This document shows positions 6,933 through 35,225 of a stretch of DNA of 35,225 nucleotides, piece after piece. The first letter of the stretch is position 1; each line of letters opens with the position of its first letter. This stretch comes from Bacteroidales bacterium (GTDB lineage Bacteria > Bacteroidota > Bacteroidia > Bacteroidales > UBA932), in contig JAFTMS010000003.1 in the NCBI GenBank assembly GCA_017452265.1, positions 1-35,225 of the forward strand, given 5' to 3'. The notes beneath the pieces are model-generated. The model had not been told where the DNA came from, did no database searches, and saw nothing but the letters and a program-made list of their open reading frames with translations. The position numbers were made by a program, and so were the translations under genes.

Positions 6933-8258
6933 TTAGAATGTATATTTTACCATCATCTGGACACGGCTGTTGGCTACCCAACGGAGGTTCTCAGTGGCGA
7001 GGGCGTTGGCGTTGTAGTTCTTGTCGCCGTACTGCACCGCCGTGTACTGGTACTCAAGACCGAGGGTGAACTTGCCGAAGTTGTACATGACCTCAGGGTT
7101 GATGCGGTACATCTGATTGAGATTGGCGAAGCCGTTCTTGCAGAAGTATATGTCATCGGCTACCACCGGTCCGTCAGCCGCTCCGTCAGCAAGACCGAGA
7201 TTCTTCATGTAGCCGAGGAAAAGGACTCCCTGCCACTTCTTTCCGTATGAAAGCGAAAGCCATGATGAAGAGTTGCGCAGAGGGGCGTATTCCCAGCTTC
7301 CGTCAGCATTCTCGGCAACCTTCGCGTATCCGCTCATGAGGTTGAAATGGTCACCGCCCTGACCATAAACGGTCTTGGCCTTTACAGAGAACTTCTTGTA
7401 TGAATACTGGGCATATGCGAACGGAGATACTGTCGTGATGCGGTCATCTACCTTTACGGTCACTCCTGCGGCATTCTCGCCCTGAATACGCGGTTTGATG
7501 CTGAGCATGTCTACCCCCACCCTCATAAGGAAGCCGTCTGTCTTATAGGTCACTCCTGCATACATTTCAGGAGTGCAGCCATACTTTATATAGTCTGCAG
7601 AAGCTCCATTTGGGCCCGCAGAAGTATACTGCATCTGCCATATCGCCGCCGCAGTAATGGTCCAATGGTCACCGAGATTCGCGTCCATAGCCACCTGCGG
7701 AGTCCTTGAGAACGGGCCGAAAGGCGCACCTACCTCAAGGCTGAACACATGCGGATGGTCAGCAGCCATAGGATGCCATGCCTGACCGATCTTCAGACCG
7801 ACAGAAGCCTTGCCGTCACCGTTCATCGGAAGATCCTTCCATGTAATGGTGGCATAGGCCTGACGGAGACGGAGGCTCGCTGTTCCTGTGGAGCCGCTGA
7901 GTCCGTTGTAGAAATCGGCCTCGACCTTTGCTCCGAAATGTACATTATTCACATAATATCCGCTTACATCCACGCCGACACGCGAAGTGAGGGCAAGGAA
8001 ACGGAATGAAGACTGCTGGTTCAGATCCTCTCCGAGGCTGTTGAGGCTCTGATCCTTAGGCAGATAGTAGAACAGGTTACCTGTTCCGGACACGCTTTCA
8101 CGTGAATCATAAGCAAAATAGTTCCTTATGAATCCGTAGAATTTGAAATGGTTCTGCAGATGCTCCTTGGCCTCTGACTTTGTGTCCTTGTCCTTCTCTG
8201 CTGCAAATGCAGGGGATGCAAGAATGAGAAGTGCCAGAAAAATTGTAATTCGTTTCAT
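6933..8258 (-). CDS. Outer-membrane beta-barrel protein (porin-like)
   Basis: The protein has 441 residues with a Sec signal peptide ending in AFAA (about residues 1-20). It has no hydrophobic helices but many alternating polar/aromatic segments typical of transmembrane beta-strands. It ends in MVKYTF, whose C-terminal Phe is the usual BAM recognition residue. After the signal comes a charged segment and then FYGFIRNYFAYDSRES, like the first strand of Bacteroidota porins. It lies downstream of a DASS symporter and 5 nt upstream of the Tat phosphoesterase. This suggests it lets an anion or phosphorylated compound into the periplasm. I recognise the fold class but not a named family. Confidence 0.8.
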   Translation of the reverse strand: MKRITIFLALLILASPAFAAEKDKDTKSEAKEHLQNHFKFYGFIRNYFAYDSRESVSGTGNLFYYLPKDQSLNSLGEDLNQQSSFRFLALTSRVGVDVSGYYVNNVHFGAKVEADFYNGLSGSTGTASLRLRQAYATITWKDLPMNGDGKASVGLKIGQAWHPMAADHPHVFSLEVGAPFGPFSRTPQVAMDANLGDHWTITAAAIWQMQYTSAGPNGASADYIKYGCTPEMYAGVTYKTDGFLMRVGVDMLSIKPRIQGENAAGVTVKVDDRITTVSPFAYAQYSYKKFSVKAKTVYGQGGDHFNLMSGYAKVAENADGSWEYAPLRNSSSWLSLSYGKKWQGVLFLGYMKNLGLADGAADGPVVADDIYFCKNGFANLNQMYRINPEVMYNFGKFTLGLEYQYTAVQYGDKNYNANALATENLRWVANSRVQMMVKYTF

Positions 8259-8315
8259 GACTTCTAAAGGTTTAGATTTAGTTTAACTCACTGGTAATCA
8301 GTAATAATAACGTAT

Positions 8316-8330
8316 TTAATAACTTATTAA
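8316..8330. repeat. 15-bp palindrome upstream of the porin gene
   Basis: TTAATAA and TTATTAA arms are separated by one base. The palindrome sits about 58 bp upstream of the porin ATG in an A/T-rich 145-bp gap after DASS symporter 1. It could be an operator. No TAnnTTTG promoter was seen in this gap. Confidence 0.4.
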
Positions 8331-8403
8331 CACTGCGAATTAAGCAATTTTTCCGTTAAAATGCAATGAAATTTCAGAGAAATCACACAAAACATCGGTC
8401 AAA

Positions 8404-9870
8404 TCAGAATCCGATGAATATGAGCATGGCATATCCGAGTATGAATCCTACCACGCCGATGATGATTCCCACTGTCGCCATCTGCTTTGTCGTAATCATG
8501 CCCGTCGAGTGCGCCAGAGCATTCGGAGGCGTACTTACAGGGAGGCACATGGCAAGTGAAGCGGATATTGCGATACCGATGACCATAGCAGGAACGCCTC
8601 CGCAGTTTTCAAATAGCGGATTGCCCTTCATTGCCGTTCCAACTACCACAAGAATCGGAACGACAAGGTTTGCAGCAGCCGAATTCGAGATGAAGTTCGA
8701 AAGGAAGTAGCAGATGAAGCCGCCGACAAGCATCACCACTATCGGATTCCAGCTTGAGAATGGAATGATCTCTATGAGAGTCGATGCCAGTCCGGTCTGG
8801 TTGAGGGCAGTTCCGAGGGCGAAACCGCCGGCCACCATCCAGAGCACAGCCCAGTTGATGCTTTCAAGGTCGCGCGCCTTGAGTATGCCCGTTGCAGAGA
8901 ATACGGCGAAAGGAATCATGGCAACGATATTTGAATTGATGCCGAAGAAGCTCTCGCCCATCCAGAGAATGATGGTCATAGCGAAAGTCACCCACACGAC
9001 GTATTTCTGGAAAGGAGTGGTCTTCACCGGAGCACCTTCGATCTTGAGCTCGATGGACTTAGCCTTAAACGGGAAAAGCTTCGAAAGAAGGAACCACGCG
9101 AACACGAGCATAATGAGCACATATGGCACCATCCTTATCATCCAGCTGACGAAAGTGACATTGTATCCTGCCTCCTGAAGGGCTCCGAGGGCGATTGCGT
9201 TAGGAGGAGTACCGATAGGTGTACCCATACCTCCGATGTTTGCGGCAATCGGGATGGCAAGGGCAAGCGCTATTCTGCCGCCGCCGTCCTTCGGAAGAGT
9301 CGCGAGAACCGGTGTAAGGAACGTAAGCATCATGGCGGCTGTCGCTGTGTTGCTCATGAACATGGAGAATATTCCAATGACGAGAAGGACTCCTAGAAGC
9401 ACAGTCTTAGGATTCGTGCCGAAAGGCTTGAGCATCACGCGTGCGAGCTGCACGTCGAGTCCGACCTTTGTGGCTGCGAAAGCGAGGACGAATCCTCCGA
9501 GGAAGAGCATGATCACAGGATCGGCGAAAGATGCCATTATATCCTTATAATGAGTCAGGGCACCGACATTTTCCTTTGCTATCAGGAAGCCGAGGCCCTT
9601 GTTGGAAGTCGTAAGAAGAATCGCCACTATGGCAACTACAGACGTCGTCCATGTCGGAATCACCTCAAGAATCCACATGAGGGCCGTGAAGACGAAGATT
9701 GCGATCACACGCTGCTGAGTGAGCGTAAACAACGGAAGACCGGTTGCCGGATCAGTTCCAAAGAAAGTTGCAGGCACCAAGGCCAGGAAGAAAGTGATAG
9801 CGCAGACAACTAAGAACTTGAGGCAGCGCTGCAGGTTCATTGGATGACCTAAAAAAGAAAAATAAGCCAT
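8404..9870 (-). CDS. DASS/SLC13-family sodium:dicarboxylate (or sulfate/phosphate) symporter, copy 1
   Basis: This is a 488-residue polytopic transporter of the divalent anion:Na+ symporter family, the VcINDY fold with two inverted repeats. The first binding motif is canonical (SNTATAAMM, residues 173-181) and is followed by GTPPNAIA (220-227). The second repeat reads SNSAAA (395-400) where the family consensus is SNT, followed by STPPNALA (446-453). In VcINDY these two SNT motifs contact substrate and the adjacent loops hold Na+. It imports C4-dicarboxylates or a related dianion in family members; the exact anion cannot be read from sequence. A second in-frame ATG at 9840 is also possible. 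It is separated from copy 2 by a terminator, and may be co-transcribed with the downstream porin and phosphoesterase. Confidence 0.9.
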   Translation of the reverse strand: MAYFSFLGHPMNLQRCLKFLVVCAITFFLALVPATFFGTDPATGLPLFTLTQQRVIAIFVFTALMWILEVIPTWTTSVVAIVAILLTTSNKGLGFLIAKENVGALTHYKDIMASFADPVIMLFLGGFVLAFAATKVGLDVQLARVMLKPFGTNPKTVLLGVLLVIGIFSMFMSNTATAAMMLTFLTPVLATLPKDGGGRIALALAIPIAANIGGMGTPIGTPPNAIALGALQEAGYNVTFVSWMIRMVPYVLIMLVFAWFLLSKLFPFKAKSIELKIEGAPVKTTPFQKYVVWVTFAMTIILWMGESFFGINSNIVAMIPFAVFSATGILKARDLESINWAVLWMVAGGFALGTALNQTGLASTLIEIIPFSSWNPIVVMLVGGFICYFLSNFISNSAAANLVVPILVVVGTAMKGNPLFENCGGVPAMVIGIAISASLAMCLPVSTPPNALAHSTGMITTKQMATVGIIIGVVGFILGYAMLIFIGF

Positions 9871-9920
9871 AACGGGATTGGTTATCAGTTACGGCATGTA
9901 AAGTTGGATAAAATATTTAT

Positions 9921-9953
9921 AAAAAACAAGAGGACAGCCATCTGACCGTCCTC
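9921..9953 (-). terminator. Intrinsic terminator after DASS symporter 2
   Basis: Read on the minus strand, there is an 8-bp stem (9953-9946 with 9937-9930, GAGGACGG pairing with CTGTCCTC including one G-U) followed by a TTGTTTTTT tract. It starts 21 nt after the DASS2 stop, which implies that DASS1 has its own promoter or depends on read-through. Confidence 0.82.
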
Positions 9954-9974
9954 CCGTGTATATCAATATGTCTT

Positions 9975-11477
9975 TTAGAACAGACCTGCCGATCCGAGAA
10001 GGATGAGCATCACGTATCCGAGCACGAGGCCGACGACACCCATGATAAGACCTGTCTTCACCATATCTTTCTGCTCGATCATTCCTGTAGCGGCTGCGAT
10101 TGCATTCGGAGGTGTCGAGATCGGGAGCACCATTCCGAGTGACGAACCGATTGCAACACCGATAAGGAGCGTTGACACGCCTCCGAGCGGGATAAGGTTC
10201 TCAGCAACCTGTGCGCTTGCTCCGACCGCTGCAAGAATAGGAACGAGAAGTGATGCCGTCGCTGTGTGCGAAATGAAGTTCGCCATGAGGTAGCAGATGA
10301 GTCCTGAACCTACGACCATGACTACTGCAGGCCATGAGCCGAACGGAATTGCATTGATGAGTGTCGTTGCAAGACCTGTCTCCTGAAGTGCCACACCGAG
10401 GGCAAAGCCACCGGCAACCATCCAGAGCACTGACCAGCTGATTTCCTCAAGGTCACGCTTTGTAAGGATACCGCAGATTGCGAATACACCTACAGGGAGC
10501 ATCGCCACTACATTTGCATTCACGCCTGTCACATCACCGAGGATCCAGAGAAGAACGGTCGCGATGAATGTAACATAAACCACCTTGGATCTCCAATCCT
10601 TCTTGAGGTCTCCCTCGATATTGAGCTCGATTGACTGAGCCTTGAACGGGAAGAGTTTCTTGAGCATGATCCATGCGATGAAGAGAAGAAGGAGCGAGAA
10701 CGGCACCATGAAGAGCATCCACTTGCCGAAGCCTACGGTTATGCCGATTTCCTCAAGGTACTTGAGGGCGATTGCGTTCGGAGGAGTTCCGATAGGCGTT
10801 CCGAGACCACCGACATTGGCAGCGATAGGAATTGCGAGTGCAAGAGCTGTCTTACCCTTTCCGTCAGCAGGAAGAGCCTTGAGGATAGGGCCGAGGAATG
10901 TGAGCATCATCGCAGCTGTCGCTGTATTGCTGAGGAACATGGAGAAGATACCCGTCACCATGAGGAAACCGAGAAGCACAAACTGAGGCTTCTTTCCGAA
11001 AGGCTTGAGCATAACGCGTGCAAGCCAGAGATCCAGGCCGCTCTTGGAAGCTGCTATCGCAAGGACGAATCCACCGATGAACAGCATGATGATAGGGTCA
11101 GCAAAGCAGTGCAGGAGCGACTTGTAGCTTGTCTGCGCACCGAGTGCCTCGACTCCGCCGTTTTCAAAGAACACAAGACTGCTGTTCGATGTCGTGAACA
11201 GGAGCAGGACCACCACCATGACAGATGTAGTCCATGCAGGTACGGCCTCGAAAAGCCACATGAGGATGGCGAAAAGGAAGATTGCGAGCGTCCTCTTCTG
11301 GATGACAGTCATGCCGTCCACCCAGTTCTCGACAGGGAGGCACCACACGACAAGAGCAGCAACGATAGCGATTATAAGGCGTATCGCTCTTGAAATGGTC
11401 TTGTCATCAGTCTTATGAGCCTTCTTCCAGTTATGGTAGGACTCAACAAGGTGATAACCAGAGAAATTTTTAAACAT
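9975..11477 (-). CDS. DASS/SLC13-family sodium:anion symporter, copy 2
   Basis: This 500-residue paralogue of the downstream symporter has the same topology. An extra 25-30-residue hydrophilic N-terminus (YHLVESYHNWKKAHKTDDK) is predicted to lie in the cytoplasm. The first motif is SNTATA (183-188), with GTPPNAIA after it. The second motif reads SHTATA (403-408), with His replacing the Asn of the SNT consensus, then STPPNAIA. So both tandem copies keep motif 1 but differ from the consensus and from each other at motif 2, which suggests different substrates. It has its own promoter (11525-11554) and terminator (9921-9953). The family call is firm; substrate is unknown. Confidence 0.91.
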   Translation of the reverse strand: MFKNFSGYHLVESYHNWKKAHKTDDKTISRAIRLIIAIVAALVVWCLPVENWVDGMTVIQKRTLAIFLFAILMWLFEAVPAWTTSVMVVVLLLFTTSNSSLVFFENGGVEALGAQTSYKSLLHCFADPIIMLFIGGFVLAIAASKSGLDLWLARVMLKPFGKKPQFVLLGFLMVTGIFSMFLSNTATAAMMLTFLGPILKALPADGKGKTALALAIPIAANVGGLGTPIGTPPNAIALKYLEEIGITVGFGKWMLFMVPFSLLLLFIAWIMLKKLFPFKAQSIELNIEGDLKKDWRSKVVYVTFIATVLLWILGDVTGVNANVVAMLPVGVFAICGILTKRDLEEISWSVLWMVAGGFALGVALQETGLATTLINAIPFGSWPAVVMVVGSGLICYLMANFISHTATASLLVPILAAVGASAQVAENLIPLGGVSTLLIGVAIGSSLGMVLPISTPPNAIAAATGMIEQKDMVKTGLIMGVVGLVLGYVMLILLGSAGLF

Positions 11478-11524
11478 AGTCAGTATTTTTGTTAATAATT
11501 ACAATCGGTTTTTCAAAACGGCGG

Positions 11525-11554
11525 CAAAGTTAACCTTTATTTACGATAAAGCAA
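11525..11554 (-). promoter_or_regulatory. Promoter of DASS symporter 2
   Basis: On the minus strand, TTG (11552-11554), 19 bases, then TAACTTTG (11525-11532): an exact Bacteroidota promoter. The expected transcript start is about 40 nt upstream of the ATG at 11477. Confidence 0.82.
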
Positions 11555-11565
11555 CCCCAAAAGCA

Positions 11566-11600
11566 AAATAAAAAGGGAATGAAAAGATATTCACTCCCTT
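11566..11600 (-). terminator. Intrinsic terminator of the korA-korB-gdhA transcript
   Basis: The minus strand shows an 11-bp stem (11600-11590 with 11583-11573, one G-U) with a 6-nt loop and a TTTTTATTTT tail. It lies about 80 nt beyond the gdhA stop and immediately upstream of the DASS2 promoter. Confidence 0.85.
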
Positions 11601-11678
11601 ACGTGTATTATAGCAGTCTCAAAAACGGTGGCGATAGATTTTCCCTATGCCGTCATTATTGTTTTCGATAGCCGCATA

Positions 11679-13019
11679 CTATATGATACCCTGTTCGAGC
11701 ATTGCCTGGGCCACCTTCATGAAGCCGGCGATATTTGCGCCCCTTACATAGTTGATGTAGCCGTCAGGCTGCGTTCCATACTTCACACATGCTTCGTGGA
11801 TATTGGACATGATGGCGTGCAGCTTCTCATCCACTTCGGCCGCGCTCCAGCTTATGTGCATGGCGTTCTGAGTCATCTCAAGACCGGATGTCGCCACTCC
11901 GCCGGCATTCACAGCCTTACCAGGAGCGAACATGATGCCGGCCTTCTGGAATGCCGCGATGGCCTCCGGAGTACATCCCATGTTCGAAACCTCGGCCGCG
12001 AGCCATGTGCCGTTTGCGAGCAGTTCTTCAGCATCCGCACCTGTAAGCTCGTTCTGGAATGCACAAGGCATCGCTATGTCGCACTTGATGCTCCAGGCCT
12101 TCTTTCCAGGATAGAATGTAGCAGACGGGAACTTCTCAGCAAAAGGAGCCACGACGTCGTTGTTCGATGCACGAAGTTCAAGCATATAGGCAATCTTCTC
12201 GGCGTTCATTCCTTCCGGATCATAGATGGCACCGTCAGGACCTGAAATCGCGATTACCTTTGCGCCAAGTTCCGTAGCCTTTGTAGCAGCGCCCCATGCG
12301 ACGTTGCCGAATCCCGAGAGAGCAACGGTCTTGCCCTTGATGTCCTTGCCGGCCATATGAAGCATATGCTGAACGAAATAAACAGCTCCGAAGCCCGTCG
12401 CCTCAGGACGAAGGATAGAGCCTCCCCAAGTCATGCCCTTTCCCGTGAGCACTCCTGTGTTGTACTGCTGCGCGAGTTTCTTGTACATACCGTAGAGGAA
12501 GCCTATTTCACGGCCGCCCACTCCGATATCGCCTGCAGGCACATCCTGGTCCGGACCGAGAATCTTCCAGAGTTCCAGCATGAAGGCCTGGCAGAAACGC
12601 ATGATTTCAGCATCCGACTTTCCGCGCGGGTTGAAATCCGAACCGCCTTTGCCACCTCCCATAGGAAGGGTTGTAAGGGCATTCTTGAATGTCTGCTCGA
12701 ATCCGAGGAACTTCAGGATAGAAAGGTTCACCGACGGATGGAAGCGGAGGCCTCCCTTGTACGGGCCGATTGCCGAGTTGAACTGCACACGGTAACCTGT
12801 GTTCGTCTGAACCTCGCCGTTGTCGTCAACCCATGTCACCTTGAATGTAAGGATACGCTCAGGCTCGACGATGCGCTCGACGATCTTTGCGTCCTCGAAC
12901 TCAGGGTGCTGGTTATATACTTCCTCGATAGACTCCAATACTTCGTGTACCGCCTGGAGATACTCCTTCTCGTAAGGGTACTTGGCCTGAAGTCTGGCCA
13001 TCAGTTCTTTTGTGTTCAT
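11679..13019 (-). CDS. gdhA: Hexameric glutamate dehydrogenase, NAD(P)-specific
   Basis: This enzyme interconverts 2-oxoglutarate plus ammonium and glutamate. At 446 residues it matches the roughly 445-450-residue hexameric class. The substrate-binding and catalytic region is intact: YKGGLRFH (87-94), PMGGGKGGSDF with Lys124, and PAGDIGVGG with the catalytic Asp near 164. The Rossmann domain shows GFGNVAWGAA (about 236-245). NADP versus NAD use cannot be settled by eye. The start lies only 22 nt after the korB stop, so it is the third gene of a korA-korB-gdhA operon: KorAB handles 2-oxoglutarate and succinyl-CoA, and GdhA aminates or deaminates the same 2-oxoglutarate. A terminator follows. 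Confidence 0.95.
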   Translation of the reverse strand: MNTKELMARLQAKYPYEKEYLQAVHEVLESIEEVYNQHPEFEDAKIVERIVEPERILTFKVTWVDDNGEVQTNTGYRVQFNSAIGPYKGGLRFHPSVNLSILKFLGFEQTFKNALTTLPMGGGKGGSDFNPRGKSDAEIMRFCQAFMLELWKILGPDQDVPAGDIGVGGREIGFLYGMYKKLAQQYNTGVLTGKGMTWGGSILRPEATGFGAVYFVQHMLHMAGKDIKGKTVALSGFGNVAWGAATKATELGAKVIAISGPDGAIYDPEGMNAEKIAYMLELRASNNDVVAPFAEKFPSATFYPGKKAWSIKCDIAMPCAFQNELTGADAEELLANGTWLAAEVSNMGCTPEAIAAFQKAGIMFAPGKAVNAGGVATSGLEMTQNAMHISWSAAEVDEKLHAIMSNIHEACVKYGTQPDGYINYVRGANIAGFMKVAQAMLEQGII

Positions 13020-32455: not shown

Positions 32456-33211
32456 ATGAGAAAAATATCAGGAATCATCATCGCAGCAGCTGTCCTGCTT
32501 CTTTCGGCAGCAACATCGTGTCAGAAGGATGACACATTGAGATACGGGAACGTAACAATGGGAAATATCGTGAACGGCAGATTCGTCAGCGACCAGGGAA
32601 ACATCTTCAACGTCGTCGACCAGACATGCAGCGGAGATCTTGAGGAACTCGAAAGAGCCATAATCTCGTGTGACGTGCTCAAGAAGGTGAACGGGGCGGA
32701 GAACGAATACGACGTCAGGCTCAACCAGATGGCCTCTGTCTTCACAAAAGCCCCTGTCAAGGCTGCGGAAATTACGGATGAGGATGCCCTTGTGCAGAAC
32801 CCGATATATGTCGACCTCGTGTGGTTCGCCGGAGGATACGCCAACATGTACATCATATTCATGGTGAAGGAAGGCAGCGAGCAGGCGCACCTGATCAACT
32901 TCGTGCTTGAGGAGGCATCGGACGGTTCTTACGTATTCAACCTCAGGCACAACGCATTCGGAGAGCTGCCTCAGGAAGGCGCAGACGAAGGCTTCGTGCT
33001 GGCCGGAACTTATGTCAGCTTCCCTCTAAGCGGGCTGATAACGGAAGACACTGCCGACATAACGATCCGCTACGACTGGTACAAGTCCGCAGGAGTCGGT
33101 CTCACTACCGAAATCGAAGAGAACTCCATAGAATACACCTGGATCCGCAGCGGTTTCGAGCAGGCCCCGGCCTCAGCCCTCGCCACCAAAGCCGCAGGAA
33201 CAGTAAGATAG
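32456..33211 (+). CDS. NigD-like lipoprotein
   Basis: This protein has 251 residues. The signal peptide ends in AATSC (Cys22), giving a lipoprotein. After QKDD comes a beta-rich N-terminal domain (about 30-105; YGNVTMGNIVNGRFVSDQGNIFNVVDQ) and a C-terminal beta domain (about 110-240; DLVWFAGGYANMYIIFMV, TADITIRYDWY), the two-domain layout of the NigD-like family. The family has no established function; the first member was described near a bacteriocin-like locus. It is divergent from cstA, ends before a terminator, and precedes the collagen-like lipoprotein. No TAnnTTTG box was found upstream, the best being ACACTTTG near 32407. Confidence 0.82.
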   Translation: MRKISGIIIAAAVLLLSAATSCQKDDTLRYGNVTMGNIVNGRFVSDQGNIFNVVDQTCSGDLEELERAIISCDVLKKVNGAENEYDVRLNQMASVFTKAPVKAAEITDEDALVQNPIYVDLVWFAGGYANMYIIFMVKEGSEQAHLINFVLEEASDGSYVFNLRHNAFGELPQEGADEGFVLAGTYVSFPLSGLITEDTADITIRYDWYKSAGVGLTTEIEENSIEYTWIRSGFEQAPASALATKAAGTVR

Positions 33212-33238
33212 ACAATTTCCGTAACAACAACCAACGCA

Positions 33239-33280
33239 ATCCGGTGATCCTTCTGACGGAAGGGCCACCGGATCTTTCTT
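33239..33280 (+). terminator. Intrinsic terminator after the NigD-like gene
   Basis: ATCCGGTG (33239-33246) pairs with CACCGGAT (33266-33273). An inner CCTTC/GAAGG stem extends the hairpin, and a CTTTCTT tail follows. Confidence 0.75.
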
Positions 33281-33459
33281 CTGCAGGATTCCGTCCGACA
33301 GCCATTTTTCAAGCGACCCGACCACCTTTCCAATCTTGACGGCCGCCCCTCGTCCGGAGAAACGGGCCTGTTTCCGGATGAGGAGCGGATTTTGACGGGG
33401 TGCTCCGGAAAAAGGCGCGGTTTTCCGGATGAGGGGATGTTCATATTTTCTTTCGAGAT
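33281..33459. other. Intergenic region with two adjacent imperfect hairpins and a repeated 13-mer
   Basis: Within the 304-bp gap between the two lipoprotein genes no gene is seen. TTTCCGGATGAGG occurs at 33371-33383 and again at 33422-33434. The first copy pairs with a near reverse complement at 33348-33363 (CCTCGTCCGGAGAAAC). The second overlaps a perfect 8-bp inverted repeat, CCGGAAAA (33405-33412) with TTTTCCGG (33421-33428). The role is unknown. Confidence 0.6.
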
Positions 33460-33490
33460 TTTGTCAATGTCCTAAGGATTACTATCTTTG
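33460..33490 (+). promoter_or_regulatory. Promoter of the collagen-like lipoprotein gene
   Basis: TTTG (33460-33463), 19 bp, then TATCTTTG (33483-33490): an exact consensus match, 25 bp upstream of the ATG at 33516. Confidence 0.85.
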
Positions 33491-33515
33491 CGGGCTTAAA
33501 CCAATCATTATCAAC

Positions 33516-35225
33516 ATGAAGAAACTTCTTTACCTCGCCATCGCGATGCTTTTCGCCGTGTCATGCGAGTACAATGACGACTGGATCAAGGACCAGTTTC
33601 AGAATCATGAAGAGCGCATTGCGACACTCGAAACATTGTGCGCCCAGATGAACACGAACATAACATCTCTGCAGGCAATCGTGAATGCACTTCAGAAGAA
33701 TGATTATGTCACAGGCATCGCACCGATAGAGGAAGGCGGCAAGGAAATCGGCTACACCATAACATTCTCAAAATCCGGCTCGGTGACAATATATCACGGG
33801 CAGTCCGGAGCAAGCGGATGGACACCTATAATGGGAGTAAGACAGGATTCTGACGGGAAATATTACTGGACCATCGACGGAGAATGGATTGTTGACGATT
33901 ATGGCAACAAGATTCCGACGACAGGTACCGATGGTGAAGACGGCGAAGACGGAACGGACGGTAAACCGGGAGCGGATGGTGCTGATGGAAAGCCGGGAAC
34001 AGACGGTTCTGACGGCAGGCCAGGTGCGGACGGAGCGGACGGTAAACCGGGAACAGATGGTGCTGACGGGAAGGATGGTCAGGACGGAGCAAATGGCATA
34101 ACTCCCCTATTGAAAATACAGGAGGACTACTGGTATGTATCTTATGACAATGGTATGACTTGGCAGAAGCTCGGCAAGGCGACAGGAGAGGATGGACAGG
34201 ATGGAGCAGATGGTCAGGACGGCAAAGATGGGACTTCCGGCAAGGACGGAACTGACGGCGATTCGTTCTTCTCATCGGTGGATACATCTGACCCCGCATA
34301 CGTAGTCATAACCATGGCTGACGGCACTGTGATAAAGCTTCCGACATGGAGCTCATTCGAGAGTCTGCAGGCACTGGTAGACAAGCTGAACACCAACGTA
34401 TCCTCACTACAGGCCATTGTCGAAGCTCTTCAGAACAATGACTACGTGACCTCGGTCGTCCCGCTCACAGAAGGAGGAAAAGTGATCGGTTATACAATGA
34501 CCTTTTCAAAAAGCGGATCAGTAGTCATATATCATGGCAAAGACGGTGCTGACGGAGCAGACGGCAAGGATGGCGTAGACGGAACGGATGGAGCAGCAGG
34601 CGTAGACGGTTGGACACCCGTCATAAGTGTAAAACAGGATGAGGACGGCAGATATTACTGGACACTCGACGGAGAATGGATGCTCGACGAAAACGCTAGC
34701 AAGATACCGACAACCGGTGAAGACGGAAAGGACGGAGAGGACGGTTCGGATGGAGCTCCGGGCACCCCTGGCACTCCAGGAAATGATGGTATCGACGGGC
34801 AACCTGGCTCGAACGGCACAGATGGCATCACGCCCCTGCTGAAGATAGAGGAGGGCTACTGGTACGTATCTTACGATGAAGGCCAGACATGGCAGGAACT
34901 TGGAAAGGCAACCGGAGAAAATGGAAAAGACGGAGCAGACGGTGCTCCGGGACAGGATGGTGCTGATGGAAGGGAGGGCGCTGATGGAGTACCGGGAAAA
35001 GACGGAGCGGACGGTCAGCCAGGAAAAGATGGTGACGCTTTCTTTTCAAGCGTAGACACATCAAATCCGAACTATGTAGTAATTACGCTGACAGACGGAA
35101 CGACGATGCAGCTTCCGACATGGAAGGCATTCGAGGAACTGCAGGGGCTGGTTGACAAGCTGAATACCGACCTGTCTTCTCTGCAGACTATCGTCGAGGC
35201 TCTTCAGAACAACGACTATGTGACA
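33516..35225 (+). CDS. Modular DUF4988-type / collagen-like Gly-X-Y repeat surface lipoprotein (partial, continues past window end)
   Basis: The frame is open for 570 codons to the window edge. The signal peptide ends in FAVSC (Cys17), followed by EYNDD, an acidic start like Bacteroidota surface-export signals. A short helical, coiled-coil-like segment (LETLCAQ to LQKNDYVT, about 36-66) leads into a module that repeats. It runs GYTITFSKSGSVTIYHG, WTPIMGVRQDSDGKYYWTIDGEW, a Gly-X-Y tract, ITPLLKIQEDYWYVSYDNG, a second Gly-X-Y tract, and VITMADGTVIKLPTW, then the helix again. The repeat point NDYVT ends at residues 66, 312 and 570, so modules are 246 and 258 residues. Gly-X-Y tracts (about 137-194, 224-249, 341-365, 401-437, 467-507) are rich in Asp, Ala, Lys and some Pro. 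The non-collagen parts match the DUF4988 type, also used as the N-terminal domain of PL29 lyases. The C-terminus and function are unseen. Confidence 0.85.
   Translation, partial: MKKLLYLAIAMLFAVSCEYNDDWIKDQFQNHEERIATLETLCAQMNTNITSLQAIVNALQKNDYVTGIAPIEEGGKEIGYTITFSKSGSVTIYHGQSGASGWTPIMGVRQDSDGKYYWTIDGEWIVDDYGNKIPTTGTDGEDGEDGTDGKPGADGADGKPGTDGSDGRPGADGADGKPGTDGADGKDGQDGANGITPLLKIQEDYWYVSYDNGMTWQKLGKATGEDGQDGADGQDGKDGTSGKDGTDGDSFFSSVDTSDPAYVVITMADGTVIKLPTWSSFESLQALVDKLNTNVSSLQAIVEALQNNDYVTSVVPLTEGGKVIGYTMTFSKSGSVVIYHGKDGADGADGKDGVDGTDGAAGVDGWTPVISVKQDEDGRYYWTLDGEWMLDENASKIPTTGEDGKDGEDGSDGAPGTPGTPGNDGIDGQPGSNGTDGITPLLKIEEGYWYVSYDEGQTWQELGKATGENGKDGADGAPGQDGADGREGADGVPGKDGADGQPGKDGDAFFSSVDTSNPNYVVITLTDGTTMQLPTWKAFEELQGLVDKLNTDLSSLQTIVEALQNNDYVT

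Follow-up and report, generated by a model that had tools for sequence, protein, structure and literature searches.

A lipoprotein gene that runs to the end of a Bacteroidales contig

The window, a 35,225-nt stretch of a Bacteroidales genome analysed here as a whole, ends inside a forward-strand gene for a collagen-containing stalk protein. Its frame, 33516–35225, is open up to the last base, which is also the contig end, and the coordinates given by the initial annotation were right. The C-terminal head of the protein lies beyond position 35225. The following features, all on the forward strand, were assigned:

33460–33490, +, promoter-like site TTTG-N19-TATCTTTG (pattern scan)
33516–33563, +, signal peptide, residues 1–16, MKKLLYLAIAMLFAVS ahead of Cys17
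33564–33584, +, predicted lipidated Cys17 with acidic residues (CEYNDDW), a possible lipoprotein export signal (lipobox scan)
33585–34343, +, module 1, a DUF4988 domain whose sites 2 and 3 hold long tracts and whose site 1 keeps a three-triplet remnant (PF16378 positions 1–111 at 33585–33938 and 106–183 at 34083–34343; tracts of 3, 20 and 9 triplets)
33924–34103, +, Gly-X-Y tract of 20 triplets, module 1 site 2 (triplet count)
34185–34265, +, Gly-X-Y tract of 9 triplets, module 1 site 3 (triplet count)
34359–35117, +, module 2, a DUF4988 domain, each of its three sites holding a long tract (PF16378 pieces at 34359–34553, 34581–34730 and 34812–35117; tracts of 9, 13 and 14 triplets)
34536–34616, +, Gly-X-Y tract of 9 triplets, module 2 site 1 (triplet count)
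34716–34832, +, Gly-X-Y tract of 13 triplets, module 2 site 2 (triplet count)
34914–35039, +, Gly-X-Y tract of 14 triplets, module 2 site 3 (triplet count)
35118–35225, +, beginning of module 3 (heptad helix), truncated where the contig stops (68-nt repeat copy at 35158–35225)

The stalk protein opens with the lipoprotein signal MKKLLYLAIAMLFAVSC, downstream of the promoter-like site at 33460–33490, which resembles the Bacteroidota-type promoter consensus. No inverted repeat of at least 12 nt was found in 33000–33640, so there is no sign of an invertible promoter and phase-variable expression from this site is unsupported. A NigD-like protein (NigD_C, 6.8e-12) is encoded at 32456–33211, about 300 bp upstream of the stalk gene. 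No SusC or SusD was found among the 10 window proteins scanned, the contig ending downstream within the stalk gene.

The lipobox Cys17 is followed by EYNDD, the sequence pattern of Bacteroidota surface lipoproteins. Acidic residues behind the lipidated cysteine form the lipoprotein export signal (LES), described in the relevant passages of PMC5080379 as established for surface export in this phylum. At least two acidic residues occupy positions +2 to +7 in 58 of the 65 N-termini with a script-found lipobox (76 examined, the window's included), a loose rule applied to these N-termini alone. Of the surface lipoprotein proposed initially, the lipid anchor and an N-terminus resembling a surface-export signal (CEYNDD) are supported by the sequence; the protein is predicted to be an outer-membrane lipoprotein and is probably surface-exposed.

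Each module is a DUF4988 domain with up to three tract sites

Copies of a 68-nt stretch lie at 33646, 34384 and 35158. The spacings of 738 and 774 nt correspond to 246 and 258 residues and match the two complete modules, plus the start of a third, that had been described for this gene. The protein belongs to Pfam DUF4988 (PF16378; 198.6 bits against a gathering cutoff of 30, E = 1.1e-58) and, with glycine at every third residue, to Pfam Collagen (PF01391; 96.5 bits against 27.2, E = 7.8e-28).

Relatives poor in or free of collagen match DUF4988 in one piece, for example at residues 36–242 of L007 and 69–245 of L115, both from the window's own genome. Alignment of 33 N-terminal regions gave an N-terminal helix followed by four units read as β, with the tracts located at three junctions; relative L045 carries about two triplets at each of these. 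The one-piece domain in collagen-poor relatives and the fixed position of the junctions indicate that the window protein is a tandem DUF4988 protein with collagen insertions. As read from the sequences, one module is one DUF4988 domain, made of a heptad helix and four predicted β units and open to Gly-X-Y insertions at as many as three fixed positions. Of the alternation of DUF4988-like segments, helix and tracts in the initial annotation, the helix and the tracts are present, but the segments are parts of one interrupted domain, not separate pieces.

Tract length per site ranges from 0 to 23 triplets in 98 parsed modules. DUF4988 does not need a triple helix, as tracts of at least five triplets are missing altogether from 18 of 95 modules. 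β unit 3 contains an Asp-box-like motif (BNR, 26.3 bits, under the cutoff of 27). Weak PDB matches of the DUF4988 profile A2 comprised the coiled coils of fibritin (4.3e-4) and spike S2 (4.1e-5), dispase autolysis-inducing protein (2e-4) and sialidase (0.0099). The strongest PDB match of the raw window protein, 8zxl, was rejected as a match of Gly-X-Y composition only.

The tracts are rich in aspartate and poor in proline

Tracts of at least five triplets in the window protein number five (20, 9, 9, 13 and 14 triplets), within the range of roughly 8–20 estimated before. The longest run of 20 triplets and the 65 triplets in runs of at least five compare with maxima of 7 and 11, respectively, in 1000 shuffles of the same residues. 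Aspartate fills 66.2% of Y positions, and proline accounts for 8.5% of X and Y positions together. Codons for glycine (GGA 27, GGT 19, GGC 16, GGG 3) and aspartate (GAC 26, GAT 19) are mixed, so simple slippage is not supported as the origin of the tracts. The Asp-dominated Y position, sparse proline and synonymous codon mixing noted initially are all confirmed by these counts.

The accompanying remark that such tracts are unlike typical bacterial collagens needs qualifying, since low-proline, Lys/Asp-rich Gly-X-Y sequence has a precedent in Scl2.28. According to the passages of PMC8968730 on this protein, it is low in proline and rich in lysine and aspartate, and it folds, with a Tm of 35.6 °C at neutral pH and 24.2 °C at pH 2.2; an Asp-rich tract is therefore no bar to a triple helix. 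The window tracts are strongly net negative, with 52 acidic versus 14 basic among 195 residues. Lysine stands at Y in no triplet of these tracts, and the stabilizing KGD/KGE pairs consequently cannot occur in them. Host-guest peptides, as summarized in the relevant part of PMC7824840, indicate that charged residues are generally unfavourable except for Arg at Y and KGE/KGD pairs. Because of the net negative charge and the missing KGD/KGE pairs, the stability of a triple helix at body temperature is uncertain for the window tracts, and divalent cations may matter.

Glycine and triplet register are conserved

We compared tract positions in 37 overlapping pairs of at least 70% identity, read in both directions, so that events are not independent; the count was one-sided (a tract was required in one sequence) and used residue-neutral scoring. 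Changes affected 5 of 807 glycine sites, 471 of 807 X sites and 210 of 820 Y sites, against 3558 of 18308 sites for other stalk residues, and 437 sites had a synonymous glycine codon change. Anchor-to-anchor lengths fell into one class modulo 3 in 46 of 52 cases at site 1, 60 of 77 at site 2 and 37 of 46 at site 3, leaving 6, 17 and 9 outside the main class. The near-copy L010, cut by its contig end, was left out of this comparison as well as of the module tree, the heptad, Cys/charge and tract-length comparisons and the composition of relatives.

The near-fixed glycine and the kept register point to a collagen-type helix, since a loose linker needs neither. The tracts behave like a periodic, probably triple-helical shaft, and to this extent the possibly triple-helical fibre proposed for this gene gains support. 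For the Ca2+ binding considered alongside it, the analysis gave no evidence. They could also be flexible, highly charged linkers, entropic spacers that join small β units into a monomeric string with no triple helix. Low proline, the strong net negative charge and the lack of KGD/KGE pairs would fit such linkers, as would tract lengths that differ between proteins with similar heads (12 versus 8 triplets in L054 and L065). A flexible linker, however, requires neither the nearly invariant glycine beside a free X nor a mostly preserved triplet register, and we consider this explanation unlikely.

With three tract sites per module, a single chain might also fold its own tracts into a triple helix or a polyglycine-II-like bundle, and site lengths do correlate (Spearman 0.72 for sites 2 and 3, 0.43 for 1 and 2, 0.45 for 1 and 3). 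The lengths within modules nevertheless mismatch: in 13 of 95 modules a single tract reaches at least eight triplets and both others have at most four, and lengths agree within two triplets in just 5 of the 39 modules in which all three tracts reach at least five. These figures favour separate chains and leave the single-chain arrangement unsupported and very improbable.

A heptad pattern was found in the helix of 87 modules and was reached by 1 of 2000 column shuffles. A heptad core alone does not select a trimer over a dimer. One core position of the helix is a cysteine in 43 of 66 first modules, Cys42 of the window protein being an example, and in 10 of 21 later ones; this residue might link chains through a disulfide or have a binding role. 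In L015 (frame 7977–12332) all four site 3 tracts are of GPQ type, whereas those at sites 1 and 2 are mostly of Asp type, indicating that tract type can be site-specific.

Module number and tract length differ between relatives

Scanning genome contigs for similarity to the window protein yielded 92 relatives, the best 80 of which correspond to 78 distinct loci. Motif counts in 79 proteins (the window's and those from the best 80 of 92 relatives) gave one module in 52, two in 12, three in four, four in one and six in one; in the other 9 of 79 the motif patterns failed, which does not make the domain absent. The three-module proteins include L009, its near-copy L010, and L008, whose third module is truncated by the end of its contig.

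L009 and L010 are 99.1% identical over 2157 nt and share the same three modules, and their tract counts agree over the part that L010 covers. The expected variation in module number was seen between species, with one to six modules among relatives, but not in this one near-identical pair.

From a quick-search module tree of 44 of the 92 extracted modules, in which 20 of 41 inner branches had support under 80, we used solely the groupings of L014, L015 and L016–L018. Modules 2–4 of L015 group together (88), as do modules 2, 4 and 6 of L014 (99), whose modules 3 and 5 fall outside these within the same clade (95); the second modules of L016–L018 group by position (99). The within-protein grouping in L014 and L015 is compatible with module duplication, perhaps in pairs. 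Stalk length can differ between proteins with similar heads: the heads of L054 and L065 are 88% identical, yet their site 2 tracts differ as given above, and those of L015 and L016 are 46% identical on four versus two modules.

The contig ends inside the repeat and its genome is split into 45 contigs at 84.49% completeness, so errors of metagenome assembly or binning might be suspected behind the repeat number. This is highly improbable, as the module copies differ from each other (71–74% DNA identity over the reported repeats) and other assemblies contain complete frames with two, three, four and six modules.

The stalk carries unrelated C-terminal heads

C-terminal regions were scanned for 69 of the 78 loci, leaving out eight frames open at a contig end and one short frame. 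Pfam matches among the 69 were LRR_5 (23), LRR_8 (17), BACON (15), DUF4465 (12), DUF4988 (4), LRR_4, Peptidase_M64, LRR_EndoS, Big_2 and Lcl_C (3 each), CotH (2) and six families once each, the four DUF4988 matches being stalk remains left by the cut point. Clustering placed 66 heads in 25 clusters (coverage >0.6, identity at least 25%). At least 100 residues follow the point 60 residues after the last recognized unit-3 motif in 66 of the 70 frames with a complete 3' end.

Within the window's own genome, contig C15 encodes BACON and LRR/DUF285 heads, C13 a GDPD head, and C30 a BACON head with a part lacking a Pfam match. Enzymatic heads in relatives include GDPD, M64 peptidase and Metallophos. 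The DUF4988 stalk thus carries unrelated heads, among them BspA-type LRR, BACON, DUF4465, Lcl_C and enzymes. This variety makes the original proposal of a fibre for adhesion or glycan contact too narrow; the relatives suggest a spacer for many heads, some of them enzymatic.

Alternatively, activity could reside in the repeats themselves, which would form an anionic adhesive fibre, possibly binding Ca2+ or glycans, with the head in a secondary role. We regard this as decidedly unlikely. The high aspartate content and the Asp-box-like motif of unit 3 would agree with it, as would two precedents: the collagen region of Legionella Lcl contributes to fucoidan binding, in the passages of PMC11162425 concerned with it, and BT3329, which has the same N-terminal region, is a surface glycan-binding protein that binds glycosaminoglycans (PMC6994673). 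The passages on BT3329 leave the binding part unspecified, however, and X residues diverge fast (the 471 changes in 807 sites counted above) while nearly all frames with a complete 3' end continue well past the stalk.

Another contig of the same genome (L148, G000:C33:1-6000) begins, at positions 1–740, inside a BspA-type LRR_5 gene that continues in another frame. This gene may continue the window gene and encode its head, or may be a separate broken gene; the observation is compatible with the former and proves nothing.

DUF4988 is concentrated in one genus

DUF4988 was found in 77 of 101 sampled genomes of the genus (74 over the cutoff) and in 4 of 296 sampled across the phylum (3 over the cutoff), the window's own genome being included in both. 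Collagen repeats, counted separately as a family, occurred in 51 of the 101 genus genomes (31 over the cutoff) and 72 of the 296 phylum genomes (47 over the cutoff). Collagen repeats are therefore widespread in the phylum, whereas DUF4988 is concentrated in this genus.

Paralogues lie side by side in several relatives: G080:C3 (L152, 1000–12000), from the genome of L008, which belongs to the same genus, has three, G009:C51 (L118) likewise three and G004:C5 (L116) two. These neighbours share one strand and have different or short C-terminal parts (the L118 frames have 325–341 residues), forming local gene families. The window's genome also encodes two distant DUF4988-like lipoproteins (G000:C14:46508-46885 and G000:C45:41131-41391), with no collagen tracts in the stretches read and the second under the Pfam cutoff. 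A DUF4988 stalk protein, L042, occurs on a contig labelled Rickettsiales (CALXSC010000117.1), perhaps mis-binned, and among 14 control genomes PF16378 scored over the cutoff, unexpectedly, in Corynebacterium glutamicum.

A search with module 2 returned no plasmid match, none of 32 candidate stretches on viral contigs was confirmed, and two matches in unannotated faecal phage records were weak; a plasmid or phage origin is thus unsupported.

Comparison with known systems

A close parallel is the pair BT3328 (a PL29 lyase) and BT3329 of Bacteroides thetaiotaomicron, which likewise combine a DUF4988-containing lipoprotein N-terminus with unrelated C-terminal parts; BT3329 is named as a DUF4988 protein in the passage of PMC10434189 that mentions it. 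The common N-terminus of about 300 residues was proposed in 2020, in section 8 of PMC6994673, to be a "spacer" for extension out of the capsule or a gain in mobility. That section mentions neither collagen tracts nor module duplication, whereas the window stalk runs through two modules into a third and bears long tracts at two or three sites of each complete module. The collagen-inserted tandem DUF4988 stalk is a variation on this already proposed spacer. Consistent with a BT3328-type N-terminus, model NF058554 (BT3328 family hyaluronic acid endo-lyase, PL29) scored 84.8 bits against a cutoff of 1100, best over positions 1–132 of 840, with the C-terminus of the window gene beyond the contig; a match by the N-terminal part alone, under the cutoff, does not imply lyase identity, although a lyase head could lie past the contig end.

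Legionella Lcl, as described in the structural passages of PMC11162425, is a lollipop-shaped trimer with an N-terminal helix, a collagen-like rod of variable repeat number and a C-terminal head. The helix–collagen–head layout is shared, and three of the 69 C-termini of relatives match Lcl_C. Lcl differs in being a type II secretion substrate bound to the surface via its N-terminal region and in its 15-residue repeats, GPQGLPGPKGD(K/R)GEA, and no DUF4988 is named in those passages. The Lcl adhesin model NF046116 gave 20 bits for the window protein against a cutoff of 500, the head lying beyond the contig end.

Streptococcal Scl2/SclB shares the Gly-X-Y rod, and its model NF038329 matches the window tracts (93.5 bits against a cutoff of 325, the window C-terminus again lying beyond the contig). 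In contrast to the LPXTG anchor given in the name of that model, the window protein has a lipobox N-terminus.

In the GH98 enzymes 9h6f, 9h6g and 9h6h, the N-terminal ~160 residues match DUF4988 profile A2 (E = 3.1e-19 to 5.1e-19), a sequence match alone that places the domain ahead of the enzyme; unlike the window protein, they show no Gly-X-Y expansion in the aligned stretch. Searches of the open-licence PMC literature found no paper for these three structures and no title or abstract on collagen tracts in DUF4988-type proteins.

A proposed trimeric, length-adjustable stalk

Our best reading, which we hold to be fairly likely from the sequence comparisons, is that the gene encodes a trimeric, length-adjustable, collagen-like lipoprotein stalk that acts as a spacer for a C-terminal head. 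Three chains would probably assemble in parallel, with the helices (often with a core cysteine) and the β units serving as trimer clamps and the tracts forming triple-helical rods between them. A triple helix rises by about 0.86 nm per triplet, and the 68 triplets seen in the window would span about 58 nm if fully triple-helical. Stalk length would be tuned in evolution by in-register insertion and deletion of triplets and by duplication of whole modules. The stalk would probably hold an exchangeable head, whether for binding or catalysis, clear of the capsule and surface polysaccharide.

A broader proposal is tentative, and we hold it with more doubt than conviction. DUF4988 might be a trimeric shaft module with three built-in collagen sites that provides a general display chassis in this Bacteroidales lineage. 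Triplets and modules would then set the reach of the head, from a few to more than 100 nm, heads would be shuffled on and off, and length would be an adaptive trait matched to the thickness of capsule or mucus.

These results offer a concrete structural proposal for DUF4988, a functionally uncharacterized domain that many genomes of this genus encode and that also fronts glycosaminoglycan-foraging proteins of B. thetaiotaomicron. The low-proline, Asp-rich tracts without KGD/KGE pairs would be natural collagens whose stability could test current rules. The source bacterium belongs to a gut-dwelling group. If the trimer is real, such cells would present their enzymes and binding proteins in trimeric form and at a tunable distance, a point of interest for how gut bacteria reach beyond the capsule that surrounds them.
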